The position numbers and the translations under genes were made by a program. A stretch of DNA of 43,891 bases from Acidimicrobiales bacterium (GTDB taxonomy: Bacteria; Actinomycetota; Acidimicrobiia; Acidimicrobiales; RAAP-2), in NCBI GenBank assembly GCA_025362585.1, contig JANYFR010000005.1, forward strand, positions 1-43,891, in the 5' to 3' direction. A model generated the notes under the pieces. That model searched no databases, was not told the DNA's origin, and saw only the letters and a list, made by a program, of their open reading frames with translations. Shown here piece after piece: positions 342-34,157 of the stretch. The number at the start of each line of letters is the position of its first letter. Positions within the stretch are counted from its first letter, which is position 1.

Positions 342-872
342 ATGGAAGAGTTCTTGATTGACGTGGAGAAGTTGAGGGAGAACGCCAGAAAAAACATGAA
401 AAAAGGTCCAGTCACCGACGCCTACGGCGCCGATGTGAAACGAGTGGTCGAAGTGCTAAATGACTCGCTGGCGACCGAATTCATCTGTGTGCTCCGCTAC
501 ACGCAGCACCACTTCGCCGCCAAGGGACTGGAATCCGAGTCAGTCGCGGCCGAGTTCTTGGCGCACGCGAATGAGGAGCGCGCCCACGCGGACTCGCTCG
601 CGGCACGAATAACTCAGCTCGGCGGAGAACCAGATCTCGATCCGTCGACCCTAAGCGAACGGGCGCATTCGCAGTACCAGACGGCGGATTCGCTCATCGC
701 GATGATCAAGGAGAACCTGGTCGCCGAGCGAATCGCCGTAAGTGTCTACACCGAAATTGTGAAGTGGCTTGGTGACCGCGACCCGACGACGCGACGACTC
801 ATAGAGGAGATCCTCGCCGTGGAGGAAGAGCACGCCGACGACATGGCCAATCTGCTGGGCTCGACTAAGTAG
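342..872 (+). CDS. Ferritin-like diiron protein (Dps-like/bacterioferritin superfamily)
   Basis: 176 residues, a four-helix ferritin fold. Diiron ligands are placed as expected: E46 in LATEF, E79 and H82 in an ERAH motif, E129 in LVAER, and E161/H164 in EEEH. These are the two EXXH pairs of bacterioferritin-type centres, and the length suits the DPS-like (DpsL) branch better than classical Dps (metal sites between subunits) or full bacterioferritin. No heme-binding Met is evident. Role by family: cytoplasmic iron oxidation and storage, protecting DNA from peroxide. The ATG is preceded by GAAAGGTG about 8 nt upstream. It is probably monocistronic and controlled from the dyad at 246-269. The exact subfamily is inferred from motif spacing only. 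Confidence 0.85.
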   Translation: MEEFLIDVEKLRENARKNMKKGPVTDAYGADVKRVVEVLNDSLATEFICVLRYTQHHFAAKGLESESVAAEFLAHANEERAHADSLAARITQLGGEPDLDPSTLSERAHSQYQTADSLIAMIKENLVAERIAVSVYTEIVKWLGDRDPTTRRLIEEILAVEEEHADDMANLLGSTK

Positions 873-1118: not shown

Positions 1119-2168
1119 ATGGCGAGAAAGGTTGCAGCCCACCGTTTGGCCAACCAGGAAGGCGTCAAACAGTCTGGAATCGCTTCATACATGCCCGCCG
1201 ATCCAGAAGGGAACCGAATCGATCAGGTCAAAGCTTCCTTCATCCGCCTAGTCGAGTCGCGCGCGTTGCATCTTCCTCTTCCCGGCAGTGGCCGAACGAT
1301 TGTGCGATGGAACTACCTCGCCGAAGTCGCCAGTGACGATCTCTGCGTCGCGCGACTTTGCGAAGCCCACTTGGATGCGGGGGCAATCCTCGCCGAACTT
1401 CACGGTCCGGTCCCTCCTCGTCGTTCGCGATGGGGCGTGTGGGCCGCTCATCCAGCACAGCCGTCGCTGTTCGCCCATCGCGTTGGCGACGAATGGCAGC
1501 TCAATGGCACGAAGCCCTTCTGTTCAGGGGCTCGTGTCTGCACTCACGCGCTCGTGAGTGCAGACGCGAACGACGGCTACCGACTGTTTGCTGTCGAGCT
1601 CAGCAATGGCATTTCACCACGGAAAGGTACGTGGCCGGCAGTCGGTATGGCTGCCTCCGACAGTCTGACCGTCGACTTCGATCAGGTGGCGGCGATCGGC
1701 GTTGGCGAGTCCAACGACTACCTTCACCGACCGGGATTCTGGTACGGGGCTAGCGCGGTGGCCGCTTGCTGGTATGGAGGCGCGGTCGGACTGGCGAGAT
1801 CGTTAGTGAAGGCTCACTTCGACCGCCCACTGGGACCACACGCACTAGCCCACCTCGGGGCTGTCGACGCGGCGCTGCACTCCTTCGCCAACAATATGCG
1901 AGACCACGCCGAAGAGGTTGACCAGGACCCGCTGGACAAGATAGGGGCAGCGGAAATTCGAGCACGACAGCTCCGTCACCAGAGTGAACTGGTCGCAATG
2001 GACGTCATGGATCGAGTTCGGCGCGCCCTGGGTGCCCGGCCATTGGTGCATGACGCTCGTCATGCCGCCCTGGCCGCCGACCTTCCCGTCTACCTCGCCC
2101 AAAGCCACGGTGAGTCCGACTTAGAGATATTGGGAAAGCTTGTCGCAGAGAGAGGGACATTATCGTGA
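1119..2168 (+). CDS. Acyl-CoA dehydrogenase-like flavoprotein, first gene of a four-gene operon
   Basis: 349 residues, somewhat short for an acyl-CoA dehydrogenase (usually about 380). The middle strand region carries the family-like GTKPFCSGA motif, and the C-terminal helical part contains the acyl-CoA-dehydrogenase-like RRALGARPLVHD and a terminal LAQSHGESDLEILG. The catalytic Glu cannot be assigned by eye. Expected activity is FAD-dependent oxidation of an acyl chain on CoA or a carrier protein. AAGGAG at 1103-1108 precedes GTG 1116 (7 nt) and ATG 1119 (10 nt); I chose ATG, though GTG is equally defensible. The stop overlaps the GTG of the following PIG-L gene (GTGA), so the two are translationally coupled. 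About 240 nt of AT-richer DNA upstream should hold the promoter. Confidence 0.75.
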   Translation: MARKVAAHRLANQEGVKQSGIASYMPADPEGNRIDQVKASFIRLVESRALHLPLPGSGRTIVRWNYLAEVASDDLCVARLCEAHLDAGAILAELHGPVPPRRSRWGVWAAHPAQPSLFAHRVGDEWQLNGTKPFCSGARVCTHALVSADANDGYRLFAVELSNGISPRKGTWPAVGMAASDSLTVDFDQVAAIGVGESNDYLHRPGFWYGASAVAACWYGGAVGLARSLVKAHFDRPLGPHALAHLGAVDAALHSFANNMRDHAEEVDQDPLDKIGAAEIRARQLRHQSELVAMDVMDRVRRALGARPLVHDARHAALAADLPVYLAQSHGESDLEILGKLVAERGTLS

Positions 2169-2938
2169 ACATTGAAGATCGTGGCGACGTATCGCCGCAA
2201 ATCTCAGGTTGTGGCACGCCCGAGTCCGCGTGGCGCGACTGCGAGACGCTACGTCAATTGCCAGAGTTCACCCTCCCGAGAACCGACCTCGCGATCGTCC
2301 TAGCACCCCACCCGGACGACGAGACACTGGGCCTCGGTGGGACGATTGCTTCGTTGCTAGACCGAGGGTCGACGGTCCTCGTATTGACGGCCAGCGACGG
2401 TGAAGCGTCGCACCCTCACAGCGTGACGACGTCACCAGAGCAACTCCGCGTGCGGCGTCAAGAAGAGTTGCGGCGCGCAATTGACACGCTGAGCGACGGT
2501 CGCCCGGGCCAGGCACTGAACGTGAAGCTCCATTTGCCCGATGGCGGGCTCGCTGGGGTGGAACGTGAGCTGGGTGAACATCTCTATCGATTTCTCGATC
2601 CGGGCGTCCTCTGCTTCTCGACGTGGGCCCAGGATGGCCATCCGGATCACGAAGCGGTTGGTCGAGCTGCCCACGTCGCCTGCGCGCGCTCCGGGGCAAG
2701 ACTCATTGAATACCCCGTCTGGACGTGGCACTGGGCGGTGCCGAATGAAGAGACCGTGCCATGGTGGAGAGCGCAGAAGGTTAATTTGTCGCCCCGAACA
2801 ATTAGTACCAAGTGGAGCGCGATCAAGCACCATGAGTCGCAGATCAACCCCCTGAGTGAGCGGCCGGGCGACGAGGCCGTGGTTCCACCCTTTGATCTGC
2901 TTCACTTCGAGCGCAGCTACGAGGTGCTCTTCGTATGA
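2165..2938 (+). CDS. PIG-L (LmbE-like) zinc-dependent N-deacetylase
   Basis: 257 residues. The zinc motif HPDDE is at residues 49-53 (APHPDDETLGLGG), and the second metal motif GHPDH is at about 158-162, followed by the helix of the family. Members remove N-acyl groups from N-acetylglucosamine-type sugars (PIG-L, MshB, LmbE). The 40-residue N-terminal extension before the first strand has no recognisable signal peptide, so the enzyme is presumably cytoplasmic. GTG start within the GTGA overlap with the upstream dehydrogenase; its own stop overlaps the next ATG (ATGA). In this operon the natural inference is deacetylation of an amino sugar made or transferred by the glycosyltransferase at 3558. 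The substrate is unknown. Confidence 0.85.
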   Translation: MNIEDRGDVSPQISGCGTPESAWRDCETLRQLPEFTLPRTDLAIVLAPHPDDETLGLGGTIASLLDRGSTVLVLTASDGEASHPHSVTTSPEQLRVRRQEELRRAIDTLSDGRPGQALNVKLHLPDGGLAGVERELGEHLYRFLDPGVLCFSTWAQDGHPDHEAVGRAAHVACARSGARLIEYPVWTWHWAVPNEETVPWWRAQKVNLSPRTISTKWSAIKHHESQINPLSERPGDEAVVPPFDLLHFERSYEVLFV

Positions 2939-3561
2939 CGATGCCCGCCGAATACTTCGAAAGTCTGTACCAAGCCAGTCCCGACCCTTGGGGATTCGCG
3001 GACCGGTGGTACGAAGAGCGTAAGCGCGCCGTCACGCTTGCTGCACTCCCCGAACCGCGTTACCTCAGCGCCTTTGAACCCGGTTGCTCGATCGGCCTGC
3101 TGACTCTCGGACTGGCCCAACGATGCGATTCTTTGCTCGCCAGCGACCTGTCCCCCTTCGCGCTGCGCGAGGCCTCTGAACGACTTCGTGGTTGGAATAA
3201 CGTGTATCTCGAACACCAGTGTCTTCCCCGCGACTGGCCTCCTGGAAAATTCGACCTCGTCGTACTCTCCGAGATTCTCTACTATCTCAGCCCAACGGAC
3301 CTCGACAATTTGATCGCGCTGGCGTCGAATTCAATTCTGGCGGGGGGCACGCTGCTGAGCGTGCACTGGCGTCGATACGTCCCCGACTATCCGCTGGGGG
3401 GAGACGAGGTACAACGCAGGGTCGCGACATTACGCGACAGGTCGCTCGTGCAAACAGTGCACCACGTCGAAGCCGATTTCGACTTGACGGTCTACGTGAA
3501 ACGACACGACGTCAATGGCTTCGAAGAGCTGTCCGTCGCTGGCAAGGAGGGACTGCGATGA
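2935..3561 (+). CDS. NodS-like SAM-dependent methyltransferase
   Basis: 208 residues. Class I methyltransferase with motif I at 48-54 (EPGCSIG), the acidic motif LLASDLSP following, and motif IV FDLVVLSEILYYL. The N-terminal YFESLYQASPDPWGFADRWYE segment is characteristic of the NodS family, whose founding member N-methylates the deacetylated non-reducing glucosamine of Nod factors. ATG overlaps the PIG-L stop (ATGA) and its own stop overlaps the glycosyltransferase ATG, so all four genes are coupled. The likely substrate is the free amine exposed by the preceding deacetylase, which would match NodB-NodS logic; this is inference, and an O-methyltransferase role cannot be excluded. Confidence 0.82.
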   Translation: MTMPAEYFESLYQASPDPWGFADRWYEERKRAVTLAALPEPRYLSAFEPGCSIGLLTLGLAQRCDSLLASDLSPFALREASERLRGWNNVYLEHQCLPRDWPPGKFDLVVLSEILYYLSPTDLDNLIALASNSILAGGTLLSVHWRRYVPDYPLGGDEVQRRVATLRDRSLVQTVHHVEADFDLTVYVKRHDVNGFEELSVAGKEGLR

Positions 3562-4280
3562 TTCGGACTTTCGGCGTAGTCGTTCCCGCGCATAATGAGC
3601 AAGAGCTCCTACCCACTTGTCTCGAAGCCCTCAAGATCGCGGCGAACCAGGGTGGTGTCGCCGCCGTGCGCATCGTCGTCGTCGCCGACGACTGCTCTGA
3701 CGCCACCGCGGACGTCGCTCGAGCGGAAGGGTGTGAAGTTATTGAAGTGCGTCGGCGCAACGCGGGAGCGGCACGCTCGATGGGCCTTGAGTTGTTAGTG
3801 AAAAGCGCGGAGGTGGACCTCGAGCACCTGTGGCTCTGTACCACCGATGCTGATAGCCGCGTACCGAATCATTGGTTCCTACACCAGGCGCAGAAGGAGG
3901 CGGAAGGATACGACGCGGTCGTCGGAACCGTATTCGTGGACGACTGGTCTGAACACAGTGAGTTGACTAGACGCCGATTCCTGCGACATTACGGCCGCCC
4001 GGGCGAGGACCACGAACACGTGCACGGCGCCAATCTCGGTTTCTCGGGTATCGCCTACCGTTCCGTCGGGGGCTTCCCTCCGTTGGCGCTGGCTGAGGAT
4101 CACGCCCTTGTTCATGACCTCACCCACCATGGGCTTCGAATCTGTCGAACCGGCAACGCGCCGGTCGTTACGTCAGCTCGTCGAAATTGGCGAGCGTCGG
4201 GCGGTTTCGGATCTCTACTCAATGCAATGGACGCACCAGATTGGGAGAGAGCTGTATCGACGGGTGCCGCGCAGAAGTGA
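3558..4280 (+). CDS. Family 2 (GT-A) glycosyltransferase
   Basis: 240 residues. Start fixed by AAGGAGG at 3544-3550 and the ATGA overlap with the methyltransferase; a longer in-frame reading from 3219 is only read-through into the upstream gene. GT2 hallmarks: VVVPAHNE at 7-14, VVADDCSDAT at 41-50, the metal-binding DAD at 97-99, GANLGF at 157-162, and the catalytic-base ED at 180-181, followed by a TSARRNWRASGGF segment. No membrane segment, so probably cytosolic and distributive rather than a processive synthase like NodC. Last gene of the operon; the next 185 bp carry no gene, then IS remnants. Sugar donor and acceptor are unknown. Confidence 0.85.
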   Translation: MIRTFGVVVPAHNEQELLPTCLEALKIAANQGGVAAVRIVVVADDCSDATADVARAEGCEVIEVRRRNAGAARSMGLELLVKSAEVDLEHLWLCTTDADSRVPNHWFLHQAQKEAEGYDAVVGTVFVDDWSEHSELTRRRFLRHYGRPGEDHEHVHGANLGFSGIAYRSVGGFPPLALAEDHALVHDLTHHGLRICRTGNAPVVTSARRNWRASGGFGSLLNAMDAPDWERAVSTGAAQK

Positions 4281-4465
4281 CCAGACCACATTCCTGAGTT
4301 CGAGAAACACTGCGATTCTTGCGGCAGAGACGAAATTGTCTTGAAATTAAAGAATTTAGGCGGTTGCCCTGGCCGGATCCCCGTGAACTGATCCAGGGGG
4401 GCTGCCCCGCCCCATCAAGTGCACCGGCATCTCCCACGTGTTCCAAAATGGAGCGAGAAGGAAGC

Positions 4466-4743
4466 ATGAAGCAAAGGCATCACACTCCCGAATAGGCGAT
4501 CAGGAAACTCGCCGAAGGCGAGAAGCTGCTGACCAGGGCGACGACATCGCCGAGGTCTGCCGCCAGCTCGAGATCACCCAGTCAACGTGGCACCGCTGGA
4601 GAAATCAATACGGCGGCATGAAGGCCAACGACGCCAAGCGTTTGAAGGAGCTCGAGAAGGAGAACGTTCAGCTCAAGCGCATCGTGGCGAACCAGGCACT
4701 CGACATCGACTTGTTGAAGTTCGTCGCCGAGGGAAAATTCTGA
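4466..4743 (+). pseudogene. IS3 orfA (helix-turn-helix transposase subunit), disrupted
   Basis: The ATG at 4466, behind a GAAGGAAG sequence, starts the recognisable orfA N-terminus (MKQRHHTPE). Codon 10 is TAG (4493-4495), probably from CAG. A frameshift between about 4528 and 4545 then moves the homology into another frame, where it continues as DDIAEVCRQLEITQSTWHRW and the leucine-rich KRLKELEKENVQLK to a stop at 4741-4743. The family product is about 90 residues with an N-terminal HTH and a coiled coil. Two independent lesions make it non-functional. Confidence 0.82.
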
Positions 4744-5302
4744 CCCCGAACCGCCGGCGTCAAGCAGCGGCGCTGCTTGAACTGGAGTTCGGGGTGTCGG
4801 AGCGCAGAGCCTGGGTCGTCGTTGGTCAGAGTCGCTCCGCCCAGCGCTTACCCGCACCGGTCCAGTCTGAGCTCGAAGAGGAGATCCGAGCCTTCTTGCG
4901 CGACTTCGCCAAGCGCCACCCGAGGTGCGGTTGGCGCCGCGGCCTCGACGCCCTGTGCGACGCCGGCTGGCCCGTGAACCACAAGAAGGTGCAGCGTCTC
5001 TGACGTGACGAGGGCCTCAAAATCCCCTACCGCAAGAAGAAGAAGCGCTTGACCAGCGTTGGCGTGGTCGTGGGCGCCATGCGGCCAATCGCCCCCAACG
5101 TCATCTGGGCCTTGGACTTCCAGTTCGACCAGGCGAGCGACCTGCGCACCGTGAAGCTGCTCAACATCGTTGATGAGTTCACTCGGGAGTGCGGCACCAT
5201 CGACGCCGCATGCTCCATCACCGCCGACGACGTCGTCAAACGTTTTGGATCAACTCGTCGCCGAGCGCGGCGCCGTGCTACCTGCGCATGGACAACGGTC
5301 CC
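4737..5302 (+). pseudogene. IS3 orfB (DDE integrase), disrupted and truncated
   Basis: Homology opens at LTPNRRRQAA overlapping the orfA end and continues through PRCGWRRGLDALCDAGWPVNHKKVQRL to an in-frame TGA at 5001-5003 that replaces a Trp codon. It resumes as RDEGLKIPYRKKKKR and the first catalytic segment VIWALDFQFD, then LLNIVDEFTRE. At about 5236-5275 at least two frameshifts occur before CYLRMDNGP, which holds the second catalytic Asp. The third catalytic residue (Glu) and the C-terminus are missing. No functional transposase can be made. Confidence 0.82.
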
Positions 5303-5473
5303 GCCGTCGAGATCGACGTCGTTGACACGACCGGCGCGGGCGATAGCTACATTTCGGGCTTTCTCAGCGCGTACTGCAATGGAGCTGACGTGCGCGAGTC
5401 AATGTTGGTGAGGTCGGTTAGCACCAGCGAAACATGTCGACACCACGGTGCTTGGCCGCGATTGGGAGTATGA
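5303..5473 (+). pseudogene. C-terminal remnant of a PfkB-family sugar kinase
   Basis: Immediately after the truncated IS, 56 codons encode the PfkB signature VDTTGAGDSYISGFL, with the anion-hole GAGD and catalytic Asp, then the helix NGADVRESML and a C-terminal SETCRHHGAW that resembles fructokinase/fructoselysine-kinase-like members. The stop is at 5471-5473. The N-terminal 200-250 residues (sugar-binding lid and most of the ribokinase fold) are absent. The reading frame is accidentally continuous with the last IS codons, producing a chimeric ORF from about 5189 that should not be annotated as a gene. The convergent dehydrogenase next door suggests this was once a sugar or polyol utilisation locus. 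Confidence 0.75.
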
Positions 5474-6675: not shown

Positions 6676-9600
6676 ATGAGACAACGCAAATTGCACCTCA
6701 ATCGCTCCGTCAATGCGGCGGTGACTCGTCTCGCCACGGCACTCGCTACCGGGATTGTCTCGACACTGGCCGTCTCGACCGCCGCCTATGCGGTGCCCAC
6801 TCCTCTACCCACGCCGGCCCCACCTTCGATCAGCCAAGCTTCGACGACGTCAATTCTCGTCAATTACACACCATTCGCCGCGATGGGTGCGAGCACCATC
6901 AAACTGTACGACACGACCTCTGGTGCTCCACCACTGACGACGAATGACAGCACGGGGTCTTCCACTTTCACCGGCCTGACCGTTCATGACACGTACCATG
7001 CAACAATTACTTCGCTCGGCGACAATATCACTACGTCCGACTCTGCGGAGAGTGCGAATTCCAACGTCGTGATCCTGACGCCTCCCCAACTGGCTCAACC
7101 ATCGGCGCCATCCCTTGCTCAGATCTCGCCCTCGTCACTTCGTGTCACGTTTTCCCCTGACGGCAACGCGAGCTCTTCCACGATCACCCTCTTCGACACG
7201 AACTTGAACACGAGCACCTCGAACTCCGTGAGTGGCAGCACCACTTCGTCTACCTTCACTGGACAGACCACCGGGCACGCGTATCGAGCGACAATCACCT
7301 CGATTGGCGACGGCACCACCTTCTCCAGTTCGGTGGAGAGTAGTTCTTCCAACACCGTGACTCTCACCCTGACGCGACTGCCGACGCCACCGCCCCCCGT
7401 AATCTCTCAGGCGTCCACCACCTCCATTGCCGTCAGTTACACACCCGCCCCGAACGCAAGTGCCAGCCTTATTGGCCTGCGCGATGTGACCGCGAGCACG
7501 TCGACTTCCTTCAGCGACACGACTGGGGGTCATACGTTCACCGGCCTCACCGTTGGCCACGTCTACCACGCCACAATCATCTCGGAAGGCGATGGAATTA
7601 CGTATTCCGACTCAGCCGCGAGTGCTGCTTCAAATTCCGTCCGACTGACTGCACCGAAACTCCCCACTCCCGCGGCCCCGGTCGTGAACATCGTGACACC
7701 GACGATTCTCATCGTTACCTACACGCCAGATTCCCTTGCCAGTTCCAGCACCATCACCCTCTACGATACGACCGCGAGTACATCGACGTCCTCGAACATC
7801 ACGACTGGGAGCCACTCGTTCACTGGCCTCACCACGGGTCACACCTACCGCGCTACAATCACCTCGGTCGGCGACGGCATCAATTATGCCACCTCCCTCG
7901 AAAGCGCATTTTCCAACAGCATCACCCTGACCGTGCCACCACTGGCAACCCCGTTAGTCACATCGACGACTCCGGAGATAACGTCGGTTGCAATTCACTT
8001 CGCTGCCATAGCGAATGCCGTTTCGTACACTGCGACCGTTCTGCACGGTGCAGCGGTGCTCTTCACGAACTCGTCGTGCACTCCTGCAAGTTGCGATTTC
8101 GTGGGCTTGGCTGAAGGAACCTCGTACACCGTGCAGGTGCAGGCAATCAGCAACCACGGGGCCGCCGGCGATTCAGCGCCCAGTGCGCCGGTGACGTTCA
8201 AGACGTTTTCGACCGGCGTATGTGGGCCATCGTCTGTCCCCGCACCCGCCTCTCCGCCCCCCGGGGTCGCCGCTTCGTCGCTCGGGACTCCCATGTCGTG
8301 CAGCACGGGGGCAACGTCAGCGACGACTCTCAAACTGACGACGCCGAACACGACGAGTACCTACCTCGTGCCGCTCGGTGCACTGCCAGTCGGGACGGTC
8401 GTCAGTGCGTACCCCATCACCAGCATCACCTCCCTCGCGAACTTGGTACCCAAGGGCCACTCCTACGTCGTCGCGGTCGCCCTCGCGTGGCAAGCGCCTG
8501 ATGGCTCAACGCCCGTTGCCACGTTACCAATCACGTTGACGATCAGGGACGCGAGTATCGTCGCTGGCGACTCGGTCACCCGCCTGAGTTCTACTGGCCT
8601 AGTCACTGTGGGAACCGCAGTCACCAAGGGCGCCATCACCATCACCTTCACGACCGATCCGATCATTGTTGTCACGGCCATCGCGAAGAGGCCCCAAGCC
8701 ACGTTGATGGTGAGGGCGGCAACTGCCCGAGTGGGCAAGGAGATTCCGCTCTCGACGCGTGGCGGCTCGGGATCGGGCGCCGTCGCGTTCAGCGTCCTCG
8801 ACGGTTCGGCAACCGGCTGCAAGGTCAGCTCGTCAAATCCACCGCGACTCACTTCCGCCAGTTACGGGACCTGTCGCGTCACTGCTCTCAAGGCGGCTGA
8901 CGTGAGTCACGGGGCAGTATCGGCGACCGCCGTGACGATGACTTTCGCCCCGAATCCACAGCGACCGCTCCGACTCAATTCGACGAAGGGCCGCGTGGGC
9001 AAGGCGCTAGTGCTGACCATAAGTGGCGGTTCAGGGTCTGGCGCATTGAGATTTAGGGTGCGCAATGGCACGTCGGCCGGCTGCGCCCTCGGTGCGCTGC
9101 GGCCCGTCACCCTCAGGGCAAGCAATCCGGGCTCCTGCCTCGTGGAAGTAGTGAAGTCGGGCGACGCTTCCTTCGGTCCAATGGCGTCGGCGACGACGGC
9201 GGTGCTCTTTGTTCGCGTCAAGGTGCCCGGGCCAGTGGTGGCGGCCACGACAGGTGTCGTGAAGTCGGGCACCCAGTCCACACTGTTCATTTCCGGATCG
9301 GGATTCGGGGTTGGCACCCACGTCAGCTCCACAACTGGCGGCGTCAGTCTTTCGGTGTTGTCGTCGACCCCGACATCAATCGTGGTGTCAATCAACGTTG
9401 CGAAGAGCGTCGCGTCAGGACCCCATCAACTGACCGTGTCAAACCGCAACGGTACGGCCCTCACGACTTACCGCGTGGTCAAACCACGAGTTCAAATCAA
9501 CGTAGCGGCACTCGTCACCGGTCTTTTGGCGGGCTATCGCCAGGCCTGGGCCTCCAGCCCCGCGGCGGGAATCGCCTACGCCTTCGCTCACGACTACCCA

Positions 9601-9900
9601 GGTTCGGCGACCACCCTGAGTGCATTCCTCGCGTGCAACCAAAAGGTCGGTGCGGGACAGACCGGTGAGACCGATACCCCGCAACTGGGCACCCTGCGCG
9701 CCGACCCCGCCTGGCGGGGCAGCGGTCCCGACACCCGAACATGGAACTTCGCCGGGAAGAAACCCAGCGGCGCCACCTATTCGGTCACCGACGCTGAAAC
9801 GACGAAATTCGCCGGCGGGAGCACCCAGAACTATCAAAAAGTGATCCACATCACGATCCTCAGTGGAACGGCATACTTTTACTTCACGCCGGCCTGCTAA
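6676..9900 (+). CDS. Secreted Ser/Thr-rich surface protein with FN3 and Ig-like repeats
   Basis: 1074 residues. Signal peptide 1-39 (basic start, hydrophobic core, cleavage after AYA). Residues about 44-510 form five tandem FN3-like units of 94-96 residues, each opening with a Pro-rich LPTPxPP linker and carrying FTGLTxGHxYxATITSxGDG. A non-repeated region (about 510-675) is followed by two Ig-like units that share GKxxxLxxxGGSGSGA (about 686-755 and 774-845), then an IPT/TIG-like unit (SGSGFG, about 853-935). The last 130 residues are a separate domain with two Cys (CNQK and terminal TPAC). No LPXTG, TM anchor or S-layer-homology motif is seen. Very rich in Ser/Thr, hence a plausible O-glycosylation target for the three glycosyltransferases downstream. 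Function is probably adhesion or envelope structure; substrate unknown. Confidence 0.78.
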   Translation: MRQRKLHLNRSVNAAVTRLATALATGIVSTLAVSTAAYAVPTPLPTPAPPSISQASTTSILVNYTPFAAMGASTIKLYDTTSGAPPLTTNDSTGSSTFTGLTVHDTYHATITSLGDNITTSDSAESANSNVVILTPPQLAQPSAPSLAQISPSSLRVTFSPDGNASSSTITLFDTNLNTSTSNSVSGSTTSSTFTGQTTGHAYRATITSIGDGTTFSSSVESSSSNTVTLTLTRLPTPPPPVISQASTTSIAVSYTPAPNASASLIGLRDVTASTSTSFSDTTGGHTFTGLTVGHVYHATIISEGDGITYSDSAASAASNSVRLTAPKLPTPAAPVVNIVTPTILIVTYTPDSLASSSTITLYDTTASTSTSSNITTGSHSFTGLTTGHTYRATITSVGDGINYATSLESAFSNSITLTVPPLATPLVTSTTPEITSVAIHFAAIANAVSYTATVLHGAAVLFTNSSCTPASCDFVGLAEGTSYTVQVQAISNHGAAGDSAPSAPVTFKTFSTGVCGPSSVPAPASPPPGVAASSLGTPMSCSTGATSATTLKLTTPNTTSTYLVPLGALPVGTVVSAYPITSITSLANLVPKGHSYVVAVALAWQAPDGSTPVATLPITLTIRDASIVAGDSVTRLSSTGLVTVGTAVTKGAITITFTTDPIIVVTAIAKRPQATLMVRAATARVGKEIPLSTRGGSGSGAVAFSVLDGSATGCKVSSSNPPRLTSASYGTCRVTALKAADVSHGAVSATAVTMTFAPNPQRPLRLNSTKGRVGKALVLTISGGSGSGALRFRVRNGTSAGCALGALRPVTLRASNPGSCLVEVVKSGDASFGPMASATTAVLFVRVKVPGPVVAATTGVVKSGTQSTLFISGSGFGVGTHVSSTTGGVSLSVLSSTPTSIVVSINVAKSVASGPHQLTVSNRNGTALTTYRVVKPRVQINVAALVTGLLAGYRQAWASSPAAGIAYAFAHDYPGSATTLSAFLACNQKVGAGQTGETDTPQLGTLRADPAWRGSGPDTRTWNFAGKKPSGATYSVTDAETTKFAGGSTQNYQKVIHITILSGTAYFYFTPAC
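6805..8205 (+). repeat. Array of five tandem FN3-coding units, period about 285 bp
   Basis: Units begin at 6805, 7090, 7378, 7660 and 7942, giving spacings of 285, 288, 282 and 282 bp. The first four share a clear consensus in both protein and DNA, for example the FTGLTxGH segment. The fifth is more diverged and has a Cys pair (SSCTPASCDF). The pattern suggests internal duplication followed by drift; unit number may vary between strains. Confidence 0.8.
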
Positions 9901-10015: not shown

Positions 10016-11473
10016 GTGAACATGACTAGTGTTCACGCGCACCTGCTTCGAAGGCCCTGCGGATTCTGGGTACTGGTGGCCGTTGGCACCATGGGTTCAC
10101 TCGGCGCGGTCCTCACCGGTTCAACCATTGGTTCGGCCCCGCGGCCCCCCCGTTATCTATGGTGGCTACACACGCCCGGCGGCGGCTACCTATTGGCGCA
10201 CGTGCTCTTCTATGTTTCCGTCGCATTCCTTACGTTGGCGTGGCTCGGCGTGGGCCTCTACGCATTCGAGAAGAGACTGACAGTGTCGCGTTCGTGGAAG
10301 GTACTAGCCCTCTGGGCCACGCCCCTACTGGTCGGGTCGCCCCTCTTCGGCCGCGACGTTTACAGCTACGCCGCCCAGGGTGCACTCGCACGTCGGGGTT
10401 TCAATCCCTACTTCGTCGCACCGCGATCGCTGGGTGCGGGCCCCCTGCTGTCGTCGGTCGCGGACGTTTGGCATAACACCACGTCGCCGTACGGGCCCCT
10501 CTTCGTTGCGTTGACCCACGCCACCGCGACCCTCGCTGGCGGCTCACTCATTGCTGAGGTCCTCGCTTTTCGAGCGCTCGCTCTCGTGGGTGTCGTGTCG
10601 CTCATGGTCTTCATCCCGGTGGTCGCTCGACACTACGGCGCCAACGAGGGCGTCGCGGTCTGGCTCGCGGTCCTCAGTCCGCTCGCCCTCTTCAGCGCCG
10701 TGGGCTCCGCCCACAACGACGCGCTCATGTTGGGTCTCGTGGTGACCGCGATCGCCGTCGCACTCCGCGGGAGGCGCCGTTGGGCGGTCGCTCTCTTCGC
10801 GCTCGCCGCCACGATCAAGTTGCCCGCACTGGCGGGCGTCGTGTTCCTCTACGCCGGGGGGTGGCGCGACGAGTCTGCCCGTGGTCGAATTCGGTCGGTC
10901 GTCGAAGCCACTGTCGTCGTTGCCTTGGTGATAATAGCGGTGACCGAAACCGCCGGCTACGGGTGGGCGTGGGTCAGCGCCCGGGCGCTCAGCATCCCGA
11001 CCCGGCTGCGCCTGCTGACCTCACCGACGGTCTCATTGGGTGTGCTGCTCGCCACGATCGCGCACGCCGCCGGTCTGCACGTCGGGACTCGCCGAGTCGT
11101 TACGTTCGTGCAACACGCGAGTGAAGTCTTCGCGGTGCTGGCGATCGCGTGGATCACCTTTAAGACCAGGACCGGCAACGTCACCCGTCACTTCGGCGTC
11201 GCGTTGCTCGTGGTCGTCGTCGCCAGTCCGACGGTCTGGCCCTGGTACTTCTTGTGGGGCGTCACGGTACTCGCCCCAACAAGCGCTCAACGGTCGCGAT
11301 TGCTGATCTGCGTGGCCGGTGGGGCAATGTTGCTCGTTGGTCCAGGCGGAACGCCAATGATTGGTGGCAACGGTTTCTACGTTTCGGGCACCCTGGTGGC
11401 CTTCGGCGCACTCTGGTTCTTCGTCTCCGGTGCGTGGCGATCAGTGATCAGGGGGGTCGATCGTGCCGCCTGA
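10016..11473 (+). CDS. mptB: MptB-like polyprenol-phosphomannose alpha-1,6-mannosyltransferase (GT-C)
   Basis: 485 residues with about 12 hydrophobic segments. The first extracytoplasmic loop carries GRDVYSYAAQGALARRGFNPY (Asp114), which matches the catalytic-loop motif of MptA/MptB enzymes, and HNDALMLG in a later helix also fits. Family role: using polyprenol-phosphate mannose outside the membrane to elongate the alpha-1,6-mannan backbone of lipomannan/lipoarabinomannan. GTG start at 10016; an AGAGGAA is 10-15 nt upstream, and ATG 10022 is an alternative. The 3' end overlaps the next gene by 11 bp. The acceptor here could be a lipoglycan or protein; the neighbouring Ser/Thr-rich protein raises the second option. 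Confidence 0.78.
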   Translation: MNMTSVHAHLLRRPCGFWVLVAVGTMGSLGAVLTGSTIGSAPRPPRYLWWLHTPGGGYLLAHVLFYVSVAFLTLAWLGVGLYAFEKRLTVSRSWKVLALWATPLLVGSPLFGRDVYSYAAQGALARRGFNPYFVAPRSLGAGPLLSSVADVWHNTTSPYGPLFVALTHATATLAGGSLIAEVLAFRALALVGVVSLMVFIPVVARHYGANEGVAVWLAVLSPLALFSAVGSAHNDALMLGLVVTAIAVALRGRRRWAVALFALAATIKLPALAGVVFLYAGGWRDESARGRIRSVVEATVVVALVIIAVTETAGYGWAWVSARALSIPTRLRLLTSPTVSLGVLLATIAHAAGLHVGTRRVVTFVQHASEVFAVLAIAWITFKTRTGNVTRHFGVALLVVVVASPTVWPWYFLWGVTVLAPTSAQRSRLLICVAGGAMLLVGPGGTPMIGGNGFYVSGTLVAFGALWFFVSGAWRSVIRGVDRAA

Positions 11474-12599
11474 AACTGTCACCACTGTCCCCACCGAACT
11501 TCGGTGGTGGCGTCGAATCCCCTACTATCGCGCGGTCGCCGTCTACGTGACGCTGCGTCTCACGACGCTGGCGGTCACCTCGATTGCCGACATCTTCACT
11601 CATCATGGGCTCGTTAGCGACCTTTCGAATTGGGACGGTGTTTGGTTCTTAAGGGCCGTGTCGCACGGTTACCCGAGTCACCTGCCCATGGCCGCGGGCC
11701 ACGTACTTGCCAGTCCCATCGCACTGTTCCCGTTGTTTCCACTCCTGATCCGCACCATTGCCGACGTCACTTTTCTCTCGGCGTCAGTCGTTGGTCTGCT
11801 CATCAGCGGTGTCACCGGTCTGGGCGCGGTGGTCGCCATCGGGCGACTCACGAACGAATTCACCGACACCGAGCGGGCTGAGCGCGCGGCGTTGCTCTTC
11901 GCGGTCGCCCCAGGTGGCTTCGTTTTCAACCTGATCTACAACGAAGGGATTGTGATCAGCCTGGTCGCGCTCGGACTCATCGCACTGCTGCGGCGTCGGT
12001 GGCTCGTCGCCGGCGCTCTCGGAGCACTCGCGACCGCGGCGTCGCCGGTCGGACTCGTCTTCGTGGTCTGTTGCGCGGCGTCCTCGTTCGTCGCAGTACG
12101 GAGGGACCGCGACTGGCGATCGTTGTTCGCACCGATCCTGGCACCCACGGGTTTCGCGGCCTGGATGATCTATCTCTGGATCCATACCGGCAACGTACGC
12201 GCTTGGCAGCTGACCGAACGTGGCGGATGGAATAGCTACCCGTCCCTCGCCTATCCCTTTCGCATCGTGGGTACGTTCATCACCAACCCCCTTGCCCCGA
12301 CGATGACTGGCCAGATTCTGTTCTTCGGCACGCTCCTGAGCGTCGCGGGTCTCGTCATAGCGTTCAGAGAGCGTCTGCCCTTCGAACTGCTCAGCTACGC
12401 ATCTTGCTCCGTCGTGTTGTTCGCTGTCTCGTCGCCCGTCGGGCTGAGGCCCCGATTCGTCATGTTGGCCTTCCCACTCACGATTGCGGTTGCGTCCAAG
12501 TGGAGCGGGCGTCGATTTCGCCTCGTCGTCGCAGGATCTGTCATCTTGTTGTTGTTGATGACCTACGAAACGCTCACGTCGTTCGCCGTCTTCCCCTAG
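11463..12599 (+). CDS. PIG-V/Gpi18-like mannosyltransferase (GT-C)
   Basis: 378 residues, polytopic. The N-terminal loop SDLSNWDGVWFLRAVSHGYP holds the WDG motif typical of the PIG-V family, followed by ALFPLFP and later VAPGGFVFNLIYNE. PIG-V adds the second mannose to GPI anchors in eukaryotes; bacterial homologues are polyprenol-phosphate-mannose-dependent transferases, often for surface glycans or protein glycosylation. GTG start inside the last codons of the upstream mannosyltransferase, so the two are translationally coupled. No large soluble domain. Acceptor unknown. Confidence 0.77.
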   Translation: MPPETVTTVPTELRWWRRIPYYRAVAVYVTLRLTTLAVTSIADIFTHHGLVSDLSNWDGVWFLRAVSHGYPSHLPMAAGHVLASPIALFPLFPLLIRTIADVTFLSASVVGLLISGVTGLGAVVAIGRLTNEFTDTERAERAALLFAVAPGGFVFNLIYNEGIVISLVALGLIALLRRRWLVAGALGALATAASPVGLVFVVCCAASSFVAVRRDRDWRSLFAPILAPTGFAAWMIYLWIHTGNVRAWQLTERGGWNSYPSLAYPFRIVGTFITNPLAPTMTGQILFFGTLLSVAGLVIAFRERLPFELLSYASCSVVLFAVSSPVGLRPRFVMLAFPLTIAVASKWSGRRFRLVVAGSVILLLLMTYETLTSFAVFP

Positions 12600-12721
12600 T
12601 AGACGCCGTGATTGCCAGCTCGACGAAGAGCCCCAGGGATACTCGGCCAACGTCACCTAAAGTACATCTGACCTCGTGACCTCAACGTCTCGTGCGATCG
12701 ATTGGCCGGGTGAGGAGGCAA

Positions 12722-14383
12722 ATGGATCAATCACCGATCTCACTCGTGACCCGTGCGATCTGGACGTTCGTATGGTTCGCCATCGTCTCGGTTGGCACCC
12801 ACGCCTGGTGGTCGTGGGGTAGGTGGTCCGGATTTAGCTTCATTGCGCCGTTGATCACGGTCGTGGGGCTAGTGGGGATGGTCCTGGTCTGGACCTGGCC
12901 CGGCGCGCGGCACCGCCGATTTGAACACGTCACGTTCGGTGCGGCCCTCGCTGCCGTCGTTCTCACTAATGGCCCCGTCATTGCGGCAACGAGGTTCTTC
13001 AACACCGACTCGGCTGCGTTCAATCAGCTGGCGACGCAGATCCTCGTGAAGGGCCACAATCCCTACACCGCAACCTTTCGTCCGTGGATGCTGCAACTGC
13101 AGCACCCCGCCGACTTCTGGACCTACACGCTCAACGGCGGTCACGTCGACCGGGTCTCGTATCCGGCGGGATCGTTCGTCATCCAAGCCCCTTTCCACTT
13201 GCTCGGTCTCCACCACCTCGGGGCCGACTGGATTGACCTCCTCGCGTGGCTCGTCGCGGCAATCATCCTCTACGTCGTGTCACCGTCGTACGCCAAATGG
13301 CTTTCGCCACTGCTGGTGCTCACCTCACTCTTCACCTTGACTTTCGCGCACGGCGGTACCGACGCCCTGTTCGTCCCGTTCATGATGCTGGCGGCGCTAC
13401 GCTGGGACGACTTCGTCACGCGCCTCGGCCCGCACTGGACGAGATGGCTCGGACCCGTGGCACTCGGCGTGGCCTGTTCGATCAAACAGTCCCCCTGGTT
13501 TACGCTGCCCTTCTTCATCGTCGGCATCATCCTGGAGGCCGAGCACCACCGCGTCGCGATCTCCAAAACCGTGCTCCGCTACCTCGGCTACGTCGCCCTC
13601 CCCTTCGCGGCAATCAACCTACCGTTCTTCATCTGGTCGCCCGGTGCGTGGCTCCACGGCACGTTGCTGCCACTCACTGAGCCCCTCGTCCCGGACGGCC
13701 AGGGCTTGGTTACCCTGGCGACCCACGGCTTCGTACGCGTGGTCCACCCTAGGGACCTCCAGTTCGCGGGAGCCCTGATGATGCTGGCGCTACTGATGGC
13801 CTTCGTGGGCTGGTACCCCGTCATGAAACGCGCGTGGCTGTTCGCCGTGCCGATCGTCCTGTTCATACCAAGTCGCAGTCTGTCGAGTTACCTCGTGGAC
13901 TTCATCCCGGCCGCGTTCGTGGCAGTCCTCACGACCAGCCGGGTTCCCGAGGCCGTCGCCGTTCACGCGCGAGCGCTGTTACGTCGGGTCGCGCTCGCCG
14001 CCCCCCTGGTCCTCGCCGCGCTCTTTGTCGTTCGAGCGTTCACCGATCCGCCAATAAGCCTCAAGTTGGACCAATACGGCGTCATCGGCGTAGGACCGTT
14101 CATGGGCTCCATGGTGCTGACCGTCACCAACAACACCGCGTCGCCGATTCATCCCCACGTCATGGTCGTCATCGGCTCGAGCCACCCAGTCGGTTTCTGG
14201 TCGACGCCCTCGACGAATGACTTGGTCGTGCCCGCGCACGCGACCGTGACTACCACGTTCGTACCGCCAAAGTTCATGTGGGCCCCTCAGCAGTACGACA
14301 ACTGGTTGGTCGAAGCGTTGACGTCGTCCCCGGCGGCGCTGACGACGACACCGGCCTACTCGTGGCCCTATAAGTCACATTGA
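12722..14383 (+). CDS. Polytopic GT-C-type glycosyltransferase with C-terminal extracytoplasmic domain
   Basis: 553 residues from ATG 12722. GAGGAGG (12712-12718) lies only 3 nt upstream, which is tight; in-frame GTGs at 12710 and 12692 are alternatives with no Shine-Dalgarno. About ten hydrophobic helices are followed by a soluble C-terminal part (from about residue 450) of beta-rich composition. The first large loop NTDSAAFNQLATQILVKGHNPY has the Asp-containing pattern seen in GT87/DUF2029-like mannosyl- or arabinosyltransferases, and SIKQSPWF resembles the conserved Lys-Gln segment of that group. It follows the two mannosyltransferases by 122 bp on the same strand, so it probably extends the same surface glycan. 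Exact family is uncertain. Confidence 0.68.
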   Translation: MDQSPISLVTRAIWTFVWFAIVSVGTHAWWSWGRWSGFSFIAPLITVVGLVGMVLVWTWPGARHRRFEHVTFGAALAAVVLTNGPVIAATRFFNTDSAAFNQLATQILVKGHNPYTATFRPWMLQLQHPADFWTYTLNGGHVDRVSYPAGSFVIQAPFHLLGLHHLGADWIDLLAWLVAAIILYVVSPSYAKWLSPLLVLTSLFTLTFAHGGTDALFVPFMMLAALRWDDFVTRLGPHWTRWLGPVALGVACSIKQSPWFTLPFFIVGIILEAEHHRVAISKTVLRYLGYVALPFAAINLPFFIWSPGAWLHGTLLPLTEPLVPDGQGLVTLATHGFVRVVHPRDLQFAGALMMLALLMAFVGWYPVMKRAWLFAVPIVLFIPSRSLSSYLVDFIPAAFVAVLTTSRVPEAVAVHARALLRRVALAAPLVLAALFVVRAFTDPPISLKLDQYGVIGVGPFMGSMVLTVTNNTASPIHPHVMVVIGSSHPVGFWSTPSTNDLVVPAHATVTTTFVPPKFMWAPQQYDNWLVEALTSSPAALTTTPAYSWPYKSH

Positions 14384-32478: not shown

Positions 32479-33339
32479 CTAGCGATAGCCCGCAAAGATG
32501 TCGTCCACCTGACCGGTGAGGCCTTGGGGATTGGTGACGCGCAGGAACCACTCCGTGCGCATCACTTCAATGAACTGCTCGCGGCCCATCTTCATCCAGA
32601 ACGAGTCGGCAATCTGAGATTGGTGTGCTTCGAGTGCATCGAACTTGGCGCCGTTGACCGAGCCGATGTCGACCGCCACACTGATCTCGTCGTCGGGCGT
32701 GCCCATCTTGATGTCATCCTCTTCGGGATCACGCTCTTCGAGCGTGCGCACGATGCCCTTTGCGGCGTCTGCCTCCGCCCGTTCGCGGTCCTCCTGCTCC
32801 CATCGCTGACGCCATAACACCATGACCGAATCAGGAACCGCGTTGTAGTACAGCGTTGGCTCGTAATCCAGAAGTTCGAGCGCCGCCCGCGTAATGCGGT
32901 TCGCCTGGATGTGGTCGGGGTGGCCGTAGAAGCCGTCCTCGTTGTAGGTCACGACGACCTGAGGCCGTTCTTCCATCATGATCTCTGCGAGGCGCGCCGC
33001 CGCGACCTCAACCGGCGTCGCCCAGAACGACTCCGGGTCGTCGTTCTGCGGCCAGCCCTTCATGCCCGAGTCGCGGTACCCGAGCCGCACGAGGCGGCTG
33101 ACGCCGAGGATCTTGACGGCGTGGTCCAGCTCGACGGCGCGCACCGCCGCGACCTCGTCGCCATCGTGGTGGCCGGCGTCGGGCTTCGCTCCGTCGAGGG
33201 CGTCGCCGCACTCGCCGTTCGTGCAACAGACGAGAACGGTGCGCACCCCCTGGTCGGCGAGTAGTCGGTAGAGGCCACCGGTCGAGCTCGCCTCGTCGTC
33301 GGGGTGGGCGTGCACCGCCAAAAATGTCAGTTGCTCCAT
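32479..33339 (-). CDS. PIG-L family amidase, mycothiol-conjugate amidase (Mca)-like, copy 1
   Basis: 286 residues from ATG 33339, which overlaps the upstream PIG-L stop (TGATG); the frame is open to 33393, but only as shadow. Zinc motif AHPDDE at 11-16, VLVCCTNGECG, RLGYRDSGMKGWPQN, and YNEDGFYGHPDH near 132-143. The layout (GYxDSG, HPDH) is that of Mca/MshB enzymes: Mca cleaves mycothiol S-conjugates in detoxification, MshB deacetylates GlcNAc-inositol in mycothiol synthesis. Which of the two cannot be decided by eye. The C-terminus (AHQSQIADSFWMKM) aligns with the region that carries the Mca catalytic Asp/His. Confidence 0.82.
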   Translation of the reverse strand: MEQLTFLAVHAHPDDEASSTGGLYRLLADQGVRTVLVCCTNGECGDALDGAKPDAGHHDGDEVAAVRAVELDHAVKILGVSRLVRLGYRDSGMKGWPQNDDPESFWATPVEVAAARLAEIMMEERPQVVVTYNEDGFYGHPDHIQANRITRAALELLDYEPTLYYNAVPDSVMVLWRQRWEQEDRERAEADAAKGIVRTLEERDPEEDDIKMGTPDDEISVAVDIGSVNGAKFDALEAHQSQIADSFWMKMGREQFIEVMRTEWFLRVTNPQGLTGQVDDIFAGYR

Positions 33340-34151
33340 CACAGTCCTCCAAATAGGTCGGTCTCGTCGCCGCTCGCCGGCCCTCGGCTCCACGCGCGCT
33401 CGTAGTACTCGGTGCCGAAGAGCAACTCGAACAACTGCTCGTTCATCGTCACCAGGTCGGCGTTGTCGACCTGAGAGGCGTGCGTGGCGATCGCCTGTTG
33501 CTTGACTTTAGCGAAGTGCCGCACGTCCATCGTCGTCGCCACCATCTCGTCGGGCACGTGCCGGCCCGCGTCGAGCACCCACGCGGGCAGGGAGAGTCCG
33601 AGGGCTCTCGCCCGCTCGACGAACTCGACAAGGACCCGGCTGGGCACTACCGGATAGTAGAGGCGTGCCGGCGTTGACGCGAAATCAAGTGACCGACGGG
33701 TGACCCTGTTCGCCATGATGTGATCGGGATGACCGTAGAATCCGGTCTCGTCGTACGTGACGACGACGGTGGCGCCGACTTCGTCCAACATCGTGGCCAG
33801 CGTGCGAGCCGTGGCGTCAATGTCGACGTTGATGAAGGCGCGGGGACTCTTGTTCTGGGGCCAGCCCTTCATGCCCGAGTCGTCGAAGCCGAGAGTGACC
33901 ACTCTGCCATAGCCAATCAACGAGGCGGCGCTTTGCAGTTCCGCAGCGCGAACGCTTCGCGTGAGGGCAGGGTCGTGCTGAGGGTCAGATCCGGGCCGCT
34001 GCTCGCTGTCGATGCCCAACTGGCCGTTGGTGCACGTGACGAGCACGACCCGGTAGCCGAGTTCGCAGTAGTGCGTCGAGATGCCCGCCGTAAACAGGGA
34101 TTCGTCGTCGGGGTGCGCGTGCACGCATACGAGAGTGGGTGTCGAGACCAT
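33339..34151 (-). CDS. PIG-L family amidase, Mca/MshB-like, copy 2
   Basis: 270 residues from ATG 34151 (TTG 34154 also in frame). HAHPDDE at 12-18, LVTCTNGQLG, LGFDDSGMKGWPQN, and YDETGFYGHPDH. The C-terminal HFAKVKQQAIATHASQVDN and final ETDLFGGL strongly resemble the end of mycobacterial Mca (ETELFAG), so this copy is the better Mca candidate. It is clearly paralogous to copy 1 just downstream and translationally coupled to it. No Shine-Dalgarno; TAATCT at 34163-34158 lies 6 nt before the ATG, suggesting a leaderless mRNA. Confidence 0.83.
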   Translation of the reverse strand: MVSTPTLVCVHAHPDDESLFTAGISTHYCELGYRVVLVTCTNGQLGIDSEQRPGSDPQHDPALTRSVRAAELQSAASLIGYGRVVTLGFDDSGMKGWPQNKSPRAFINVDIDATARTLATMLDEVGATVVVTYDETGFYGHPDHIMANRVTRRSLDFASTPARLYYPVVPSRVLVEFVERARALGLSLPAWVLDAGRHVPDEMVATTMDVRHFAKVKQQAIATHASQVDNADLVTMNEQLFELLFGTEYYERAWSRGPASGDETDLFGGL

Positions 34152-34157
34152 CAAGAG

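Follow-up and report, generated by a model that had tools for sequence, protein, structure and literature searches.

What product could a bacterium assemble with four overlapping genes that encode, in this order, a flavoprotein of the acyl-CoA dehydrogenase fold, a PIG-L N-deacetylase, a class I S-adenosylmethionine (SAM) methyltransferase related to NodS, and a GT2 glycosyltransferase? Such a cassette occupies positions 1119-4280, on the + strand, of a 43,891-nucleotide stretch of DNA (hereafter, the window) in contig JANYFR010000005.1 (C37) of the Acidimicrobiales bacterium assembly GCA_025362585.1, which is 2.09 Mb in size and 96% complete. A preliminary description of this sequence had viewed the four genes as a single pathway that parallels Nod-factor decoration, in which acyl-chain desaturation would fall to the dehydrogenase. 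The cassette turns out to be a real, widespread unit that is shared by distantly related bacteria. The reading of its function that we put forward, as a serious possibility rather than as the probable answer, is that its product is an aminosugar glycoside, small, soluble and N-methylated, which would then be oxidized by the flavoenzyme.

A four-gene unit in distantly related bacteria

The start and stop codons place a four-nucleotide overlap between each pair of neighboring genes, in agreement with the GTGA and ATGA junctions of the preliminary description (Table 1). For the GT2 gene, a mechanical list of open reading frames (ORFs) offers a longer frame that starts at 3219, which we did not adopt, using the ATG at 3558 instead. 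In Pfam, the PIG-L protein matches PF02585 with 75 bits (cut-off 28.2), the methyltransferase matches the NodS family PF05401 with 42 bits (cut-off 24), and the GT2 matches PF00535 with 48.5 bits (cut-off 23.3). The only match of the flavoprotein is to the middle domain Acyl-CoA_dh_M (PF02770), at 32.5 bits, just below the cut-off of 33.3, so that its dehydrogenase label leans on the fold more than on Pfam; none of the NCBIfam models matches this protein at E<=0.001.

Relatives were collected by a pattern-based scan of species genomes with the methyltransferase alone, which yielded 160 stretches, of which the best 80 were kept and scored for the cassette with profiles of all four families within 6 kb. 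All four families are present in 73 of these 80 best methyltransferase relatives, 36 times in the order GT2-flavoprotein-PIG-L-methyltransferase, 35 times in the order seen in the window and a single time in each of two further arrangements; L007 and L066, both among the 73, have only a flavoprotein fragment, located where the contig ends. Among the remaining seven, four have no PIG-L match, one has no GT2, one consists of PIG-L and methyltransferase only, and one of the methyltransferase only.

The same association emerges when genomes are selected without regard to the other cassette genes. About one in eight of the genomes drawn from the phylum of the window (52 of 396) carries a methyltransferase match, at 54 places, all of which were examined (the window itself is L098), and within 4 kb of the methyltransferase the flavoprotein is found at 48 of these places and the GT2 at 45. 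In an analogous draw from Pseudomonadota, the methyltransferase is matched in about one genome in nine (43 of 398), at 49 places, some of which are nod genes or fusions; the flavoprotein is present at 32 and all four families at 24 of the 37 places examined, the 12 outside this count being the query genome itself, three NodS-like genes and eight long chains. As a control, 20 arbitrary 13-kb segments from genomes that carry the cassette or its methyltransferase were searched with six profiles, and none of the 20 gave a match. The four families thus travel together across phyla, far beyond chance. The preliminary description had held that homologues routinely found apart would speak against a shared pathway; the search across genomes found them side by side, and its proposal of a single pathway is strengthened accordingly.

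The distribution of the cassette is patchy even within the genus of the window (5 of 25 genomes). Methyltransferase matches also occur in 141 plasmid records, including those of Rhizobium, Acinetobacter, Sulfitobacter and Deinococcus, of which eleven were examined individually; these matches are not all cassettes because nod genes match the methyltransferase as well and are among the 141. The Acinetobacter plasmid matches (H21-H25 and H27-H37) are methyltransferase relatives, several of them from human samples, and H27 (L088) carries the full cassette. Altogether, the set comprises 185 loci, 181 of them distinct. We found no description of this cassette in the open-access literature.

Deacetylase exchange and the Nod-factor parallel

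An informative variation on the theme is the exchange of the deacetylase. A gene for a CE4 polysaccharide deacetylase, located ahead of the flavoprotein gene, takes the place of PIG-L in one actinobacterial family, which includes a Rubrobacter plasmid (L094), and in a single genome from another family (L190); in these cassettes, a gene for a pyridine-nucleotide-type flavin reductase lies between those for the methyltransferase and the GT2. Scored with deacetylase profiles, the 54 places of the phylum draw divide into 29 with CE4, 20 with PIG-L, none with both and five with neither; over all 185 loci, PIG-L is found at 133, CE4 at 32 (including the nod operon L266, and L267, which resembles one), and both at none. 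The metal-binding motifs of the CE4 proteins are intact throughout (TFDDG, 32/32; HxxxH, 32/32). The window PIG-L contains both the HPDDE and the HPDH motifs, and the 133 cassette PIG-L proteins show H.DDE in 133, HP[DE]DE in 130 and H[PASG]DH in 111 cases. Both PIG-L and CE4 include deacetylases of N-acetylglucosaminides, and the interchange of the two at one position is therefore the strongest evidence that N-deacetylation belongs to the pathway. At 25 of the 29 CE4 places the flavoprotein is present, and the other four are bare deacetylase-methyltransferase pairs; the bare pairs L182, L195, L204 and L208 form one clade in which neither flavoprotein nor GT2 is matched.

How close, then, is the cassette to the nod genes? 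The three CE4 proteins that were scanned (from the L094 cassette and the L182 and L195 pairs) have NodB as their best NCBIfam model, at 105-120 bits (cut-off 240); with the NodS model, the methyltransferases that adjoin CE4 reach 75 bits in L094 and 84 bits in L182. A quick tree with ten other CE4 rows, some of which duplicate rows that were already included, was made with NodB ancestry of these proteins in mind; its long branches meet, and it settles nothing. The window methyltransferase belongs to the NodS family by Pfam, as the preliminary description had it, but not by the NCBIfam equivalog NF041650, with which it scores 47.4 bits against a cut-off of 300, and hence it does not qualify as NodS at the curated threshold. 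For comparison, L266 is a genuine nodA-nodB-nodC-nodS-nodU array, in which each protein exceeds its own curated cut-off and NodS scores 333 bits with NF041650.

The three activities also occur together in single-chain proteins. The weaker methyltransferase matches of the Pseudomonadota draw include chains of ~750-1200 residues, and in all four that were scanned (L264, L312, L314 and L316; ~1000 residues) GT2, NodS and polysaccharide deacetylase domains follow each other in this order. These are the same three kinds of domains as in the cassette; no flavoprotein domain was found in these chains, and their methyltransferase domain clusters with NodS rather than with that of the cassette. Two of the four genomes that encode the fusions (G476 and G484) also carry NodS-like genes. 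In a methyltransferase tree of 88 rows, unrooted and sub-sampled and with bootstraps that are not fully settled, five NodS rows and seven fusions stand apart from the cassette family, with branch support of 98/83. This tree was obtained from an earlier one of 102 rows (with 22 random further PIG-L cassette rows and 12 of the 23 CE4 cassette rows) by removing 14 random PIG-L cassette rows along with the long branches L091 and L221, and by trimming L266 to 160 residues. Among the NodS rows, L266 was checked against the equivalog, L267, L309 and L310 owe their name to location and similarity, and L311 scores 274 bits with Pfam NodS. We considered the nesting of NodS inside the cassette family, but this is not supported by the trees, given that they are unrooted.

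The comparison with nodBCS can be summarized as follows. In both systems, a GT2-type synthase, an N-deacetylase and a NodS-family methyltransferase are encoded together, and CE4-type cassettes match the nod genes in the deacetylase superfamily as well, whereas the window has PIG-L in place of CE4 and the cassette includes an additional flavoprotein. One study (PMC5080398) places the NodS-dependent N-methylation after deacetylation in the synthesis of Nod factors and did not observe it in a nodB mutant. The window also differs in its setting, which is not that of a nodABC operon, the genes on both sides belonging to other families by Pfam. NodC is a membrane enzyme of 485 residues, unlike the cassette GT2, which has 240 residues and lacks any hydrophobic membrane-like segment (maximum 19-residue hydropathy 1.40). 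The Nod-factor parallel thus appears to be real as enzyme logic, and the CE4 cassettes and the fusions bring it closer than the preliminary description had suggested, although the window proteins are neither NodS nor NodB by the curated models. The core logic predicted here, namely aminosugar transfer followed by N-deacetylation and methylation, is well supported by these independent genomic arrangements.

The remaining features of the GT2 and of the methyltransferase are compatible with this logic. The GT2 contains the TDADS (DXD) and ED motifs, both nearly invariant among its relatives, with the DAD of TDADS invariant in an alignment of 32 rows, and its structure model has a predicted local distance difference test (pLDDT) score of 93.9 and WrtF as the best Foldseek match. 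Because the GT2 lacks a hydrophobic segment, a small soluble product would be likelier than a polymer. A profile of the methyltransferase searched against the PDB retrieves 4isc (219 bits), NodS itself (3ofj, 105 bits) and then phosphoethanolamine N-methyltransferases, and since N-methyltransferases follow directly after 4isc, the methyl acceptor leans to nitrogen and the protein is probably an N-methyltransferase.

The flavoprotein and the possible product

Is the flavoprotein an acyl-CoA dehydrogenase? Its structure model (pLDDT 91.2) adopts the acyl-CoA dehydrogenase fold over most of the chain; in the VIA comparison, Z ranges from 30.5 to 32.6 over 322-337 residues among the 50 entries listed. 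Foldseek places DszC, MsuC, DnmZ and KijD3 alongside acyl-CoA dehydrogenases, and among the VIA entries listed TdsC, DszC and MsuC are level with dehydrogenases; KijD3 and DnmZ are not among these 50 entries, which is not evidence against either. In a sequence profile search of the PDB, the top positions belong to 5z8t/5gj7, DszC (2e-16), TdsC and KijD3 (5e-14), followed by ColB1 (7xp7), the dehydrogenases 2dvl and CarC, the nitrososynthase 3mxl (2e-11), short-chain acyl-CoA dehydrogenase (2e-10) and medium-chain acyl-CoA dehydrogenase (3e-4). DszC and the window protein have the stretch FCSGA in common. The column that holds the catalytic Glu of acyl-CoA dehydrogenases (EGT motif) is occupied by Gln in all 37 cassette flavoproteins compared; of the reference dehydrogenases from the same genome, represented by the four of ten loci that gave motif-matching ORFs (the other six were dropped), three have Glu there and one has Asp. 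Some acyl-CoA dehydrogenases place the catalytic base elsewhere. With Gln in place of Glu and oxygenases heading the match list, we dropped acyl desaturation as the default.

We infer from the Gln in 37/37 proteins and from the best PDB sequence matches, which are flavin monooxygenases and include sugar N-oxygenases such as KijD3, that acyl desaturation is less likely than an oxygenase or oxidase reaction at, or close to, the amine of the sugar. The sequence and the modeled fold are both compatible with a group D flavin monooxygenase. The likeness to the group D enzymes DszC, KijD3, 3mxl and DnmZ extends to the fold, the top profile matches and, for DszC, FCSGA; the differences are an identity of ~14-19%, the shorter cassette protein and the lack of an adjoining reductase in PIG-L cassettes. 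By contrast, a Pyr_redox_2 reductase is present in 23 of the 25 CE4-type cassettes with a flavoprotein in the phylum draw, and this reductase could fit the need of a two-component oxygenase. A review (PMC6165268) assigns oxygenases of the acyl-CoA dehydrogenase fold to group D, lists N-hydroxylation among their reactions and has a paper on a sugar N-oxygenase among its references, and another (PMC7347517) mentions a putative acyl-CoA dehydrogenase that is discussed for an N-hydroxylation. The flavoprotein family also varies in architecture: on the Deinococcus plasmids L087 (3448-5820) and L096 (1193-3532), it forms the C-terminal part of a protein of 779-790 residues, of which the N-terminal 430 residues in L087 have no Pfam match and by eye resemble a glycoside hydrolase, as a candidate only. 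In Legionella lytica, the fourth gene of the cassette is a divergent flavoprotein (229 bits with the profile).

The scenario that we favor runs as follows. A cytosolic GT2 would move an N-acetylated aminosugar, most likely N-acetylglucosamine (GlcNAc), from a nucleotide sugar to an acceptor; PIG-L, or the CE4 deacetylase in other lineages, would strip the acetyl group and free the amine; the NodS-related enzyme would methylate the freed amine with SAM; and the flavoprotein, rather than acting on an acyl-CoA, would use its flavin to oxygenate or oxidize the amine or a position next to it. We infer all of the substrates, the methylation site, the oxidation by the flavoprotein and the biological role alike, and the product may aid survival of stress or desiccation. 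A much more specific version, which strikes us as quite unlikely as it stands, has a redox-active N-methyl-N-hydroxy (or nitrone) aminosugar glycoside made under stress, with GlcNAc transferred by the GT2 and the amine freed, methylated and finally hydroxylated by a KijD3/DszC-like flavoprotein; the NodB/NodS decoration would then be a specialized branch of a much older deacetylate-and-methylate module. Should the scenario be correct, the cassette would represent an unrecognized family of modified aminosugars, perhaps linked to stress, in soil and clinical bacteria alike, and the deacetylation and N-methylation of Nod factors would gain wide relatives outside nod operons, such that the origin of these steps becomes testable.

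The stress role is plausible rather than established, and is suggested by the neighborhoods. Catalase and trehalose genes lie near the cassette on an Acinetobacter plasmid (H27). In Bradyrhizobium its neighbors include genes for Ku and LigD, in Legionella lytica those for a trehalose-phosphatase and a GH65 protein, and in Cupriavidus those for catalase and a GlgE-type protein; other records that were examined, such as that of Roseomonas and those of the Deinococcus plasmids, have no neighbors of this kind. Over the 185 loci, catalase occurs 13 times, topoisomerase IB 10, Dps 8 and OtsA 5 times, with 0 in 20 controls, which are too few to decide. A strict SigF-like motif precedes 26 of 118 cassettes, nearly all of them actinobacterial, compared with at most three in any of 100 dinucleotide shuffles, with the proviso that the 118 loci are related and not independent. 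A loose version of the motif shows little or no enrichment (41 of 74 vs 33 expected, and 22 of 44 vs 18.8). The promoter motifs of EcfG (strict, 1/39 vs 0.2 expected, an unconvincing enrichment) and AlgU (0/39) were tried on the Pseudomonadota-plus-plasmid set and rejected. The Mycobacterium smegmatis protein MSMEG_1097 is a SigF-dependent GT2 according to three papers (PMC4694148, PMC5445863, PMC7174638); as a candidate for the cassette GT2, it serves as a lead only.

Several observations weigh against the glycoside scenario. With respect to deacetylation, 5 of the 54 places in the phylum draw and 8 of the 37 in Pseudomonadota have no deacetylase match (one of the eight is a fusion that carries its own CE4), and the second histidine motif H[PASG]DH, as written, is absent from 22 of the 133 PIG-L proteins. 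With respect to methylation, the NodS label is no proof of N-methylation because MMAR_2193, which is aligned with NodS-like proteins, O-methylates polyketides (PMC8730385). The oxidation step is affected in four ways: the VIA Z range covers monooxygenases and acyl-CoA dehydrogenases alike, so that the fold does not separate them; in the profile search, two dehydrogenases, 2dvl (3e-13) and CarC (4e-12), come after DszC but ahead of the nitrososynthase; only five PIG-L loci have a match nearby to the type of reductase found in CE4 cassettes, and it does not adjoin the cassette there; and an ORF from the same genome, L302 (PF00441, 150 bits), which is outside the alignment, also lacks the Glu, having Ala in IYAGT, so that loss of this residue is suggestive and does not by itself show a new activity. 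As for the stress link, the corresponding neighbors are found in a minority of the loci (catalase, 13/185), six of the 118 cassettes have the strict SigF-like motif on the reverse strand, and the strict site is absent from the window.

Other explanations can be put forward. The genes could be a tailoring set for a different small molecule, in which the methyltransferase would modify an oxygen or carbon atom and the deacetylase would cleave an amide other than that of a sugar; the O-methyltransferase that groups with NodS-like proteins is a precedent and the cassette includes no sugar-nucleotide gene as a constant member, but the swap of PIG-L for CE4, two families with N-acetylglucosaminide deacetylases, and the fusion of GT2 to NodS-like and CE4 domains point back to sugars, and we deem this option unlikely. 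Slightly less probable still is that the flavoprotein does work as a dehydrogenase, but on an unusual substrate that is either small or bound to a carrier, in the manner of ColB1, which oxidizes carrier-bound cysteine, with the other three genes decorating the same scaffold: the fold and the Z-scores suit dehydrogenases as well as monooxygenases, ColB1 ranks high in both sequence and structure comparisons, and the Glu is also missing from some dehydrogenase-family proteins of the same genome (L302), yet the best sequence matches are oxygenases, and the 15 recurrent neighbor families scanned, of 41 clusters, include no carrier-protein, adenylation or thioesterase family.

To the original proposal we would likewise assign no more than a small likelihood. 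In this view, the product is an aminoglycan or glycolipid that resembles a Nod factor in being both N-acylated and N-methylated; an unlinked enzyme would provide the acyl chain, which the dehydrogenase would desaturate. The GT2, the N-deacetylase and the NodS-related methyltransferase are all at hand, and NodB is the best model for the CE4 proteins scanned; however, Gln fills the catalytic Glu column (which is not proof), the GT2 is small and free of membrane segments, unlike NodC, NodA (PF02474) has no match in the genome of the window when the positive control, G476, scores 340 bits, and an acyltransferase is absent from the same 15 neighbor families, so that nothing positive speaks for an N-acyl glycolipid. 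A low-molecular-weight thiol or cofactor-like glycoside, akin to mycothiol or bacillithiol and varied by methylation and oxidation, seems to us the least probable of all. The cassette PIG-L shares its family and the HPDDE metal motif with the MshB/BshB branch and matches BshB1, BshB2 and MshB weakly but significantly, and oxidative-stress genes lie near the cassette in some loci; however, the scores (44.7, 38.5 and 26.8 bits) fall far below the curated cut-offs (182, 195 and 224, respectively), the neighbor clusters scanned contain no cysteine ligase, and the cassette enzyme is a GT2, whereas MshA and BshA are GT4 enzymes. Moreover, two other, overlapping PIG-L genes of the window, among six PIG-L matches in the genome, are much nearer to MshB, their best model, at 164 and 154 bits, even if still below 224.

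Genes around the cassette

The features of the window are listed in Table 1. Upstream of the cassette and outside the operon lies a Dps/ferritin-like gene, a relative of which is similarly placed in seven other loci, six of them distinct, since L052 and L227 come from one contig; the corresponding neighbor cluster (17) is located ~1.7-2.4 kb upstream of the methyltransferase. Another recurrent neighbor (cluster 20), a protein of ~736 residues whose representative has no Pfam match, is found in seven loci (L077, L232, L233, L234, L235, L236 and L251), five of which also have a GlgX-type gene.

Table 1. Positions of the cassette genes and of other features in the window
Feature	Position	Strand	Remarks
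Dps/ferritin-like gene	342-872	+	PF00210, 92.9 bits
Acyl-CoA-dehydrogenase-fold flavoprotein gene	1119-2168	+	349 amino acids; ATG at 1119, AAGGAGTG upstream
PIG-L N-deacetylase gene	2165-2938	+	257 amino acids; GTG start; GTGA overlap with flavoprotein gene
NodS-related class I SAM methyltransferase gene	2935-3561	+	208 amino acids; ATGA overlap with PIG-L gene
GT2 glycosyltransferase gene	3558-4280	+	240 amino acids; ATG at 3558; ATGA overlap with methyltransferase gene
Apparent insertion sequence remnant	4438-5411	+	HTH_Tnp_1 transposase ORF, 50.5 bits; 5049-5408 without Pfam match
Gene for protein with fibronectin type III similarity	6676-9900	+	1074 amino acids
Three consecutive hydrophobic-protein genes	10016-14383	+	First matches MptB, 138.7 bits (cut-off 40)
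Two overlapping PIG-L genes	32479-34154	-	Best model MshB

Downstream of the GT2 gene there is an apparent remnant of an insertion sequence, in which the frames that follow the transposase ORF are broken by stops. Among the three consecutive genes for hydrophobic proteins, the two that follow the MptB match hit no NCBIfam model at E<=0.001. In the long protein encoded between these two regions, little is recognized apart from the similarity to fibronectin type III.

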